Below are positions 11,338 to 17,422 of a DNA stretch of 36,863 nt, piece by piece (the stretch's first letter is position 1; every line of letters starts with the position of its first letter). The notes under the pieces were generated by a model. That model was not told where the DNA came from. It saw only the letters and a list, made by a program, of their open reading frames with translations, and did not search any database. This stretch comes from Flavobacteriaceae bacterium (lineage in GTDB: Bacteria; Bacteroidota; Bacteroidia; Flavobacteriales; Flavobacteriaceae), in the NCBI GenBank assembly GCA_947444255.1, contig CANEZU010000003.1, positions 1 through 36,863 of the forward strand, in the 5' to 3' direction. The position numbers and the translations under genes were made by a program.

Positions 11338-12261
11338 TTAATGCTGAACTATATATTCTTTCTCACATTTTTTGTTAAATTCAGGCTGAATTGTACAATG
11401 ATTAATGTGATATTGATGGTGTAAAACTTCTTCTATAGTATTGACTAAAATATTGAATTGTAAAATTGAAATATTTTCCTTGCAATCTATATGGGCCTCG
11501 AAATGAATTTCAGTGTCGTTTAGATGCCACAAATGAATGTGGTGTAATTGGTGAGTACCAATAACTTGTTCTAAACTTTTTATAATTTCTTTAAGGTCAA
11601 TATTTTCAGGAGTAAAAAGCAATAATATTTTTGAAGAAGACTTTAAAATATCAAAACTCATGTAAATGAGATAAATGGCAATTCCAAAAGTGATCAAACT
11701 ATCAACCCAATACCATTGGAAATATTTCATCAGTAATCCGCCAACTAAAACAGCAATTGAAGCAATCATATCTGAAAAAAGGTGCAAATAAGCTGATTTC
11801 ATATTTAAATTATGAGCCGCATCTTTTTTAAGTAAAACTGCCGAAAAACCATTAAAAGCAATTCCTAATATTGATAACCAAATCACTAAATCAGAACTAA
11901 TTGTCACTGGATTATAAAATCGGGTTATCGATTCAGAAATTAAAAAAAGAGCGACAATTACCAATGCTATCGAATTTATAAAAGCTGCAATTATTTCGAC
12001 TCTTTTATATCCAAAAGTGTGTTTTTCGTTTGCTTTCTTTTGGGATATTTTATTAGCTATATAACTTAAAAGTAAACCAATTACATCACTAAAATTATGC
12101 AATGCATCTGATAATAAAGACAAACTACCTGAAATAAAACCACCAATAATTTGGGCAATCGTAATTGCTATATTTAAAAAAATAGAAATGGAAAGATTAC
12201 CGTTATTTACCTCCTGATGATGATGTCCGTGATTGTGACTGTGTCCCATTTTTACTGGCAA
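11338..12261 (-). CDS. Cation diffusion facilitator family transporter
   Basis: His-rich N-terminus HSHNHGHHH, SLSLLSDALHNFSDVIGLLLSY, HLFSDMIASIAVLVGGLL, DSLITFGIAIYL. Confidence 0.94.
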   Translation of the reverse strand: MPVKMGHSHNHGHHHQEVNNGNLSISIFLNIAITIAQIIGGFISGSLSLLSDALHNFSDVIGLLLSYIANKISQKKANEKHTFGYKRVEIIAAFINSIALVIVALFLISESITRFYNPVTISSDLVIWLSILGIAFNGFSAVLLKKDAAHNLNMKSAYLHLFSDMIASIAVLVGGLLMKYFQWYWVDSLITFGIAIYLIYMSFDILKSSSKILLLFTPENIDLKEIIKSLEQVIGTHQLHHIHLWHLNDTEIHFEAHIDCKENISILQFNILVNTIEEVLHHQYHINHCTIQPEFNKKCEKEYIVQH

Positions 12262-12683
12262 GCAATTTTATTGACTCGGGTTTGATGCCTTCCTCCTTCG
12301 AAAGAAGTGTTTAAAAAATGATCAACCATATCAACTGCTTGCGGTATCGAAGTATATCTCGCAGGAATACTTATAATATTAGCATCATTATGTTCCCTTG
12401 CTAAAATGGCAATTTCTTTTATCCAACATAAAGCAGCACGAACTTTTGGATGCTTATTTACGGTCATCGATATTCCATTTCCACTACCACAGATTACAAT
12501 TCCAAAATCAGCTTTTTCTTCTGAAACGTCTTTTGCTACAAGATGACCAAAATCTGGATAATCTACACTATCTAAAGTATCTGTTCCGTAATTTGTAACT
12601 TCATGTCCTTTTGCAATTAACATTTCTACGATGGCTTTTTTATATTCTGGCCCTGCATGATCGTTCCCAATAGAGATTTTCAT
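12252..12683 (-). CDS. rpiB: Ribose 5-phosphate isomerase B
   Basis: MKISIGNDHAGPEYKKAI, YGTDTLDSVDYPDFG, GIVICGSGNGISMTVNKHPKVRAALCW. Confidence 0.95.
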   Translation of the reverse strand: MKISIGNDHAGPEYKKAIVEMLIAKGHEVTNYGTDTLDSVDYPDFGHLVAKDVSEEKADFGIVICGSGNGISMTVNKHPKVRAALCWIKEIAILAREHNDANIISIPARYTSIPQAVDMVDHFLNTSFEGGRHQTRVNKIACQ

Positions 12684-13342
12684 TTTATTGTTTTTAAAGT
12701 TGTATTGTGCAAATTTAGTTAAAGATTTGACGCTATATTACTAGCTGTTTTTATTATTTATTAAAATAAAATAAAAAAATTCTAATAATCTGAATTCTAA
12801 TACTCTAAGATAGCTTTATTTTTTAATTAACTGTATATCAGTTTAAAAGACGTAATTTAATTGTTATCTAATTGTATTGTTAATAGCTTTTTTTAAGTTA
12901 TTGTAAATCAGTTAACTTAAAATTAACAATAAATGTTTATAAGTTAATGTAAAAAAGAAGAACTATTTTTAGTTTATATATAATTAATTTGTAATCCAAA
13001 ACGCACTTGAAATAAACTAATTTAATTAGCTTAAATTATAGATTACTTATCCCTATAATTTATCCTCTTATTAACAAAAAGTATTGATTGAACTTATTTA
13101 CAAAACCAATACTAAGTGGATTATTAATAGTTGTTAATAGCTTTTTAAAAAGTGTTTAAAATTAAACCTTTAAGTAAAAATAGAGCTGTTGATAAGTCTA
13201 TATAAATTTAAATAAGTTATAAAATCTACTTTTATAAATAAAGTTATAGTAGCTATTAACACGCTATAATAACCATTAAAAAATATTTTAAATTTCCTTT
13301 TTCTTTTTGTTGTTTTTAATATATGTTGACAACTTTACTCAT
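12684..13342. other. Candidate chromosomal replication origin (oriC) region
   Basis: ~660-bp non-coding, extremely AT-rich gap. TGTTAATAGCT occurs at 12878-12888 and 13132-13142 on + and at 13251-13261 on -. DnaA-box-like 9-mers are TGTTGATAA (13187-13195) and TTATTAACA (13068-13076). Gene orientation switches from mostly - on the left to mostly + on the right. Confidence 0.55.
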
Positions 13343-13582
13343 TTAAACTATATTTAAATTGGAATCGTTATTCAATTTATCTAAAATGATTCTTACCGTT
13401 TTAAAATCATTAGGATGAATTTTTAATTTAATTCCTCCTAAAGCATTTGAATAAAAAGGAACAATAGAAGACATGGTTTCATTTTCAAAATAATATAAAA
13501 TACCTTGCCGTTGTAATAGATGTTTAAGTACAACTATTTCGTGTGTATAATTAAATATTGCAATCGTTTCAAAATCTTCCAT
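13343..13582 (-). CDS. DUF2007 domain-containing protein
   Basis: 79 aa, FETIAIFNYTHEIVVLKHLLQRQGILYYFENETM...GGIKLKIHPNDFKTVRIIL matches the small DUF2007-type fold. Confidence 0.75.
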   Translation of the reverse strand: MEDFETIAIFNYTHEIVVLKHLLQRQGILYYFENETMSSIVPFYSNALGGIKLKIHPNDFKTVRIILDKLNNDSNLNIV

Positions 13583-13700
13583 TTTTATATATTTTTATAA
13601 AGATACGCAGTTTTTAAAAGTTATATTTTCTTTAAATCTGTTAATTGAAAATTGAAAACTGTTAACTATTTTGTAATTTTAGACTTTTAAGAAAAGAAAT

Positions 13701-15881
13701 ATGAATAAGAAGCCAAAAAAATTTGGAAAAAAAGAGAAGGATTTCTCCGATAAAATAATTAAAATTTTATCACAAAATGCAAATAAAGCTTACAACTACA
13801 AACAAATAGCCGGAATTTTAGAATTAGATGATACTCAAAGTCGAAATGAGATTATTAAAGATCTAAAAATTTTAGCATCACAAAATAAAATCATAGAAAC
13901 GGAACCTGGTAAATATTTAGTCAAAGCAATTAGCCAAGATTACTATGAAGGTACAATTGATATGACCAGTAGAAAAACGGCTTATTTTGTAAGTAAAGAT
14001 CTGGAGGAAGATGTTTTTATTCCTACAAATAATCTGAATCACGCATTAGACAAAGACACTGTAAAAGTTTATGTTTATAACCGAAGAAGAGGTAAAAAAC
14101 CAGAAGGAGAAGTTATTGAAATAATAGAAAGAAAAAAATCAGAATTTGTTGGAGTTATTGACATCCAAAAGAATTTTGCTTTTGTTACTACTGCAAATCC
14201 AAAAATGTATACCGATATTTTTATTCCAAAAGATAAAATAGGTGAAGCACAACAAGGTGATGTAGTTATTGCAAAAATTGAAGACTGGCCTAAAAAAGCC
14301 GATAGTCCCTTTGGTTCTATTATAAAAGTTCTTGGAAAACAAGGAGAACATGATACCGAAATTCACGCTATTCTTGCTGAATATGGTTTACCTTATGATT
14401 TTCCAATAGAAGTTGAAGTTTTTGCTCAAAAAATAGATACCAGTATTCAAGAAAGTGAAATAGCAAATCGACGAGATATGCGTGATACTTTAACTTTTAC
14501 TATCGATCCAAAAGATGCAAAAGATTTTGATGATGCACTATCTTTCAAAAAATTAGAGAATGGAAATTACGAAATTGGGATTCACATTGCCGATGTTTCC
14601 TATTATTTACAAGAAGGGACTATTTTAGATGATGAAGCTTATAAAAGAGCTACTTCGGTTTATTTAGTAGATAGAGTTGTACCCATGTTGCCAGAAGTTT
14701 TATCAAATTTTGCTTGTTCACTTCGTCCGCAAGAAGAAAAATATACTTTTTCTGCTGTATTTGAAATTAACGAAAAAGCACAAATGATTAATCAATGGTT
14801 TGGAAGAACTGTAATCTATTCCGATCAACGTTTTGCTTATGAAGAAGCGCAATATATTATTGAAAATAAAGACAATACAATTCCAGAAGAAATATCAATT
14901 ACAGGACAATCATATGAAGTGTCGGATGAAATTGTAAACGCAACTTTAAAATTAGATGAATTAGCTAAAATCTTAAGAGCTAAAAGAATGTATGATGGCG
15001 CAATATCATTTGATAAAGTAGAAGTAAAATTTAATTTAAACGAACAAGGAGAACCAGAAGGAGTTTATTTTAAAGTTTCAAAAGAAGCCAATCATCTTAT
15101 CGAAGAATTTATGCTTTTAGCTAATAAAAAAGTGGCTGAATTCATTGGAAAACAAAAGAAAACTTACGTTTATAGAATTCATGATGAGCCTAATGTTGAT
15201 AAGTTAATCAGTTTACAAACAGTAATATCTAAATTTGGTTATAGTATTAATCTAAAATCGAAAGGAGAAATATCTCAGTCTTTAAATACTTTATTACAAA
15301 GTGTAGTTGGAAAAAAAGAACAAAATCTAATAGATACTTTGACTATTAGAACCATGAGTAAAGCCAAATATTCTACCGAGAATATTGGTCATTACGGCTT
15401 GGCTTTTGATTATTATTCGCACTTCACTTCTCCAATTCGTCGTTATCCAGATGTTATGGCGCATCGTTTGTTACAACATTACATAGATGGAGGAAAGTCT
15501 GCAGATGCTGATTTATATGAAGAAAAATGTATTCATTCCTCTAACATGGAAAGTTTAGCGACAAACGCCGAACGAGATAGCATTAAATACATGCAAATTA
15601 AATATATGCAAGATCATAAAGATCAAGAGTTTTTGGGTGTTATTTCCGGAGTTACTGAATGGGGAATTTATGTAGAAATTATTGCAAATAAATGTGAAGG
15701 AATGTGTAGAATTCGTGAAATAAAAGATGATTATTACACCTTTGATGACAAACAATATGCACTTGTAGGAGAAGTTTCTAAAAAGGTATTACAATTAGGA
15801 GACGAAGTTTTCGTTAAAGTTAAGAATGCTGATTTAGTGAAGAAACAATTAGATTTTCACTTTATTAGAAAAAACGAATAA
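13701..15881 (+). CDS. rnr: Ribonuclease R
   Basis: RNB catalytic core TIDPKDAKDFDDALSFKK, HIADVSYYLQEGTILDDEAYKRATSVYLVDRVVPMLPE, HYGLAFDYYSHFTSPIRRYPDVMAHRLLQ, C-terminal S1 domain. Confidence 0.97.
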   Translation: MNKKPKKFGKKEKDFSDKIIKILSQNANKAYNYKQIAGILELDDTQSRNEIIKDLKILASQNKIIETEPGKYLVKAISQDYYEGTIDMTSRKTAYFVSKDLEEDVFIPTNNLNHALDKDTVKVYVYNRRRGKKPEGEVIEIIERKKSEFVGVIDIQKNFAFVTTANPKMYTDIFIPKDKIGEAQQGDVVIAKIEDWPKKADSPFGSIIKVLGKQGEHDTEIHAILAEYGLPYDFPIEVEVFAQKIDTSIQESEIANRRDMRDTLTFTIDPKDAKDFDDALSFKKLENGNYEIGIHIADVSYYLQEGTILDDEAYKRATSVYLVDRVVPMLPEVLSNFACSLRPQEEKYTFSAVFEINEKAQMINQWFGRTVIYSDQRFAYEEAQYIIENKDNTIPEEISITGQSYEVSDEIVNATLKLDELAKILRAKRMYDGAISFDKVEVKFNLNEQGEPEGVYFKVSKEANHLIEEFMLLANKKVAEFIGKQKKTYVYRIHDEPNVDKLISLQTVISKFGYSINLKSKGEISQSLNTLLQSVVGKKEQNLIDTLTIRTMSKAKYSTENIGHYGLAFDYYSHFTSPIRRYPDVMAHRLLQHYIDGGKSADADLYEEKCIHSSNMESLATNAERDSIKYMQIKYMQDHKDQEFLGVISGVTEWGIYVEIIANKCEGMCRIREIKDDYYTFDDKQYALVGEVSKKVLQLGDEVFVKVKNADLVKKQLDFHFIRKNE

Positions 15882-17350: not shown

Positions 17351-17351
17351 G

Positions 17352-17422
17352 AGGCATCGTGCGGATTCGAACCGCAGTAGGAGCTTTTGCAGAGCCCAGC
17401 CTAGCCACTCGGCCACGACGCC
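17352..17422 (-). tRNA. tRNA-Cys (GCA)
   Basis: Reverse complement GGCGTCGTGGCCGAGTGGCTAGGCTGGGCTCTGCAAAAGCTCCTACTGCGGTTCGAATCCGCACGATGCCT folds as a cloverleaf. The anticodon loop is CTGCAAA, the discriminator is U73, and CCA is not encoded. Confidence 0.95.

Follow-up and report, generated by a model that had tools for sequence, protein, structure and literature searches.

A candidate chromosomal replication origin beside rpiB in a Flavobacteriaceae genome

Gene context and DnaA boxes of the gap

The window, by which we mean the whole stretch of 36,863 nucleotides that was analyzed, is one contig of a metagenome-assembled genome (312 contigs, 2.56 Mb, 74% complete) whose closest named relatives belong to Flavobacterium. 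It carries rpiB at 12252-12683 (- strand; PF02502, E 1.7e-55), transcribed away from an intergenic gap of 659 bp at 12684-13342 that is syntenic in 72 relatives. On its right the gap is bordered by a DUF2007-like gene (13343-13582, - strand), which matches PF09413 with 15.4 bits, below the cut-off of 25.7 bits, and has a homolog at the same position in most Flavobacterium loci. This gene lies between the gap and rnr, encoding RNase R (13701-15881, + strand; RNB domain, E 4.2e-108). The preliminary description of this DNA had characterized the gap as AT-rich and free of credible ORFs, and this is borne out by an AT content of 81.5% and by the finding that no ORF of at least 80 amino acids overlaps it. 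Rfam and tRNA scans returned nothing in the gap, their sole result being a tRNA-Cys gene at 17351-17422.

The same description had reported three copies of TGTTAATAGCT, two of them extended to the 16-mer TTGTTAATAGCTTTTT. The copies are located at 12878-12888 (+), 13132-13142 (+) and 13251-13261 (-) and are absent from the remainder of the window, and the 16-mer occupies 12877-12892 and 13131-13146, as claimed. When the gap was shuffled 2000 times with its dinucleotides preserved, a triple 11-mer arose in 34 shuffles, a repeated 16-mer in 11, and both together in none. The inverted repeat TTAACTTA/TAAGTTAA was likewise found where it had been placed (12912/12940), but it is at chance level, an 8-bp inverted repeat being present in 288 of 300 shuffles, and it was dropped as a meaningful feature.

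The k-mers enriched across 72 syntenic gaps, that of the window among them, turned out to be variants of one word, and from these k-mers the seed pattern TTNTNAACA was picked for a DnaA-box profile. The profile, comprising 13 columns and trained on the relatives with the window left out, centers on TT[AG]T[TC]AACA, in most cases with AG in front of it. Positions 5 and 6 of this family form deviate from TTATCCACA. With a score of at least 7 as the definition of a site, the gap contains nine sites against 1.15 expected in shuffles (none of 1000 shuffles reached nine), and the density of 13.7 sites per kb is 10.8 times that in the other parts of the window (1.3 per kb).

The strongest sites are those at 13187-13195, 13324-13332 and 13131-13139. 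They correspond to TTATCAACA (- strand, score 15.4), to the opposed box TTGTCAACA (- strand, score 15.2), the TGTTG of which is conserved in the core alignment A1 described below, and to the pair TTGTTAATA(+)/CTATTAACA(-) that lies inside the second TGTTAATAGCT copy (13131-13140; scores 14.6 and 7.5). Further boxes are TTATTAACA (13068-13076, + strand, score 10.1), which reads TTTTTCAACA in most relatives, TTATTTACA (13094-13102, + strand, score 9.2), which is conserved in the gap alignment, TTGTTAATA inside the first TGTTAATAGCT copy (12877-12885, + strand, score 8.3), where ATTGTTAATAG is conserved, and the weaker TTATAAACA (12934-12942, - strand, score 7.7). The box CTATTAACA at 13253-13261 (+ strand), which holds the third TGTTAATAGCT copy on the - strand, scores under the threshold because its first base is C; its TA.TAACA part is (nearly) invariant in A1. 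The initial list of DnaA-like words, with TGTTGATAA at 13187, TTATTAACA at 13068 and TTATCC at 13047 and 13060, was correct in its positions and partly so in substance: the word at 13187-13195 is among the strongest boxes, the two TTATCC words have no box-level score in the profile and lack support as boxes, and the strong box at 13324-13332 had been overlooked.

A conserved core and its distribution

An alignment of 52 gaps revealed blocks of near-identity, the best of which, aligned as A1, covers about 100 bp at 13238-13338 (+ strand). Within this core a box (NTATTAACA) is followed by CGC and by a stretch with a three-base rhythm (TATAATAACCATCAT); next come an AT-rich spacer and TTTTTGTTGTTTTTAATAGA, and last an opposed box (TGTTGAAAAC/TGTTGACAAC). 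R1, a profile built from the core sequence, was used to search other genomes with a match threshold of E <= 1e-4. Exactly one match was obtained in 104 of 120 same-genus genomes, including that of the window, although some of these genomes may have supplied training sequences for R1. The distance to rpiB was at most 2.2 kb in 94 of the 104 and 4-16 kb in 6, whereas in the remaining 4 rpiB was missing or on a different contig. Considering the possible overlap with the training set, the matches from outside the genus (G126, 8e-10; G137, 3e-7; G110, 5e-6; and more), nearly all of which adjoin rpiB, constitute the better independent support. A distant match in G116 (23.7 bits) was discounted as an origin, as there is no box cluster there. 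In G159, G161, G191, G221 and G230 the match lies 12-16 kb from rpiB, as in G208 (see below), and judging from these positions, displacement of the origin could be frequent among these bacteria of the same genus.

Conservation of the syntenic gap and of DnaA-like words in related species, the absence of which would have spoken against the initial proposal, was observed across the family. When 29 family loci (one of the same genus and 28 of other genera) were inspected, 27 proved to have at least four boxes within 700 bp on the side of rpiB that faces the gap, and 4 had them on the other side. Among 28 loci outside the family, at least four boxes were found in 7, of which 4 have at least six, and rnr is beside rpiB in 2. 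The loci L263, L271, L277 and L279, all from outside the family, carry 6-9 box-like sites in the 700 bp upstream of rpiB, where rnr is not found. Given that box clusters thus occur at rpiB outside the family while rnr is rarely adjacent, the link between rpiB and the origin may be older than the link with rnr, and older than the family.

Strand asymmetry and displaced clusters

The cumulative GC skew of the window has its minimum at 13438 and the purine and AT disparities have theirs at 13688, so that all three turn within around 350 bp of the gap; the GC skew averages -0.113 on the left side and +0.058 on the right. Between 21000 and 25000 the GC skew is negative again over - strand genes, opposite to what is expected for a right arm. 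As the genome of the window is divided over 312 contigs, these values describe the local scale only, and a local skew could stem from divergent genes. For this reason 20-kb stretches were sampled across complete genomes of relatives. The chromosome-scale skew reverses its sign at rpiB in two genomes of the same genus, G160 and G253, and in one of the same family, G126. For the negative and the positive side of rpiB, stretches of the respective sign number 8 of 10 and 9 of 10 in G160 and 10 of 10 and 9 of 10 in G126, and in G253 there is more noise far from rpiB. The switch is not at dnaA, which is located 1.0-1.2 Mb from rpiB in these three genomes, and the cluster at rpiB is the densest box cluster among all sampled stretches of each. 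A skew minimum elsewhere, which would have spoken against the origin proposed initially, was not encountered: the minima in the window are at the gap and the chromosome-scale switch in these complete relatives is at the gap beside rpiB.

The interval from rpiB to rnr lacks a box cluster in three complete same-genus genomes (G172, G208 and G225). In G208 a full-length core match and nine boxes are found at around 1,434,740-1,435,190, 15 kb from rpiB, where the GC skew changes from -0.175 to +0.162; it returns to negative values at 1440-1447 kb and is positive thereafter. In G225 a core match at 1,960,840 is accompanied by nine boxes, 50 kb from rpiB, and the skew is negative in all sampled stretches to the left of this cluster, also in those that separate it from rpiB, and positive in all those to the right. 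The relocated cores of both genomes have diverged and match R1 weakly (17.6 bits, E about 0.01); such a match is weak by itself, yet it is credible here because it coincides with a box cluster and a skew switch. The strand asymmetry therefore accompanies the boxes rather than rpiB; either the origin or the rpiB block may have moved. Both G208 and G225 have, in the interval from rpiB to rnr (loci L186 and L187), an ORF of 537 amino acids that by eye is apparently an acyl-CoA synthetase. In G172 (L182) the rpiB-rnr gap is 218 bp, and the sampled stretches yielded no box cluster and a weak skew throughout. G208 also contains a second dense cluster of nine box-like sites, several of them TTATCAACA, at around 1,768,050-1,768,270 (L206, 18047-18267), at a distance of over 300 kb from the skew switch; it is possibly a DnaA-titrating or regulatory site.

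These data bear on two other explanations of the gap. It could be just a long divergent regulatory region serving rpiB and the DUF2007-like and rnr genes, as AT-rich as promoters elsewhere, with the local skew produced by divergent transcription. The genes do diverge from the gap, and elsewhere in the window the skew tracks the gene strand, as in the dip over the - strand genes at 21-25 kb. We nevertheless regard this explanation as very improbable, given that a box cluster is unexpected for a promoter, that the skew switch of the relatives persists over hundreds of kb, and that G225 keeps its rpiB-rnr flanks while its boxes and switch are 50 kb away. Alternatively, the boxes could titrate DnaA or be regulated by it, in the vicinity of the true origin but distinct from it, and the second cluster of G208, remote from the switch, is an instance in this group of a box cluster away from the origin. 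The cluster in the window, however, lies within a few hundred bp of the skew minima, the switch of G160, G253 and G126 is also where their densest sampled cluster lies, and cluster and switch remain together where they are displaced, leaving a titrating site an equally slim chance.

Proposed function and relation to known systems

We conclude that the gap is very probably the chromosomal oriC of this Flavobacteriaceae genome, as had been proposed at the outset. It combines a box cluster beyond chance directly upstream of rpiB with the position of the skew switch, a conserved core in single copy and an AT-rich, meltable segment, and in two relatives cluster and switch are found together away from rpiB. 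Over 60 bp, stability in the window is lowest at 13199-13258, and its three least stable 100-bp stretches also lie inside the gap. In the mechanism we propose, DnaA, encoded elsewhere, would bind about 8-10 boxes of the form TT[AG]T[TC]AACA, and the resulting oligomer would open the very AT-rich DNA around 13238-13338. Opening would presumably start within a putative unwinding region at 13192-13322, which includes 13199-13258 and most of the core, after which two forks would depart in opposite directions. The DnaA protein of G160 is ordinary in sequence, with a top match to a solved DnaA structure (E 5.5e-100). The DnaA signature reads DHATV in G160 (L115) and G172 (L215); that of E. coli DnaA is DHTTV. 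This difference occurs alongside the divergent box form, to which it may be linked.

More tentatively, Flavobacteriaceae origins might have a compact initiation core of their own, consisting of opposed boxes, an AT-rich spacer, a GC step and a non-classical three-base rhythm, which in some Flavobacterium lineages lies 12-50 kb from rpiB and would have moved as a unit with the skew switch; we consider this generalization possible, though not the likelier outcome. The putative displaced origins of G208 and G225 represent a natural experiment on origin movement. Four of the six complete same-genus chromosomes checked for dnaA (G160, G172, G195 and G222) begin at dnaA, with rpiB 0.88-1.07 Mb off. 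Recognition of oriC at the sequence level is thus of use in a family where dnaA gives no guidance, and a reliable origin position serves coverage-based estimates of growth rate and the construction of replicating plasmids.

Whether the core works as a basal unwinding system (BUS) with classical DnaA-trios beside its box seems doubtful. The published order is box, GC-rich spacer and trios (PMC8287927), and the core resembles it in having a box, a short GC-rich step (CGC) and a three-base rhythm, which in L043 takes the form of a perfect (ATC)4. The search rule, however, asks for a DnaA box with three or more 3'-NAN-5' trios in a row no farther than 16 bp away (PMC8287927), and the core box at 13253-13261 is followed by just two, and then by TGG. 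Other boxes of the gap do have runs of at least three, but such runs are equally common at random positions of the gap, where about half show one; the gap is so AT-rich that the rule is uninformative here.

Predictions already exist for origins adjacent to rpiB and, separately, for Bacteroidetes origins remote from dnaA. In the literature searched we found no experimentally determined Flavobacterium origin, nor any mention of this family box form, of the core profile or of displaced origins, which is no proof of novelty; another paper on a member of the Flavobacteriaceae puts the origin at mnmG (PMC12843772). According to the parts of the report considered here, Ori-Finder places oriC adjacent to rpiB in six of seven circular Tenacibaculum chromosomes (PMC9864904), an arrangement that shares both the family and the rpiB neighbor with the window. 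In those parts the Tenacibaculum origin appears as predictor output, with no box form, core or test found. In Prevotella intermedia OMA14 an oriC remote from dnaA has been predicted for the Bacteroidetes, with a box cluster at the skew switch (PMC4755523). The two loci come from different orders, and in both a box cluster marks the skew switch with dnaA not nearby.
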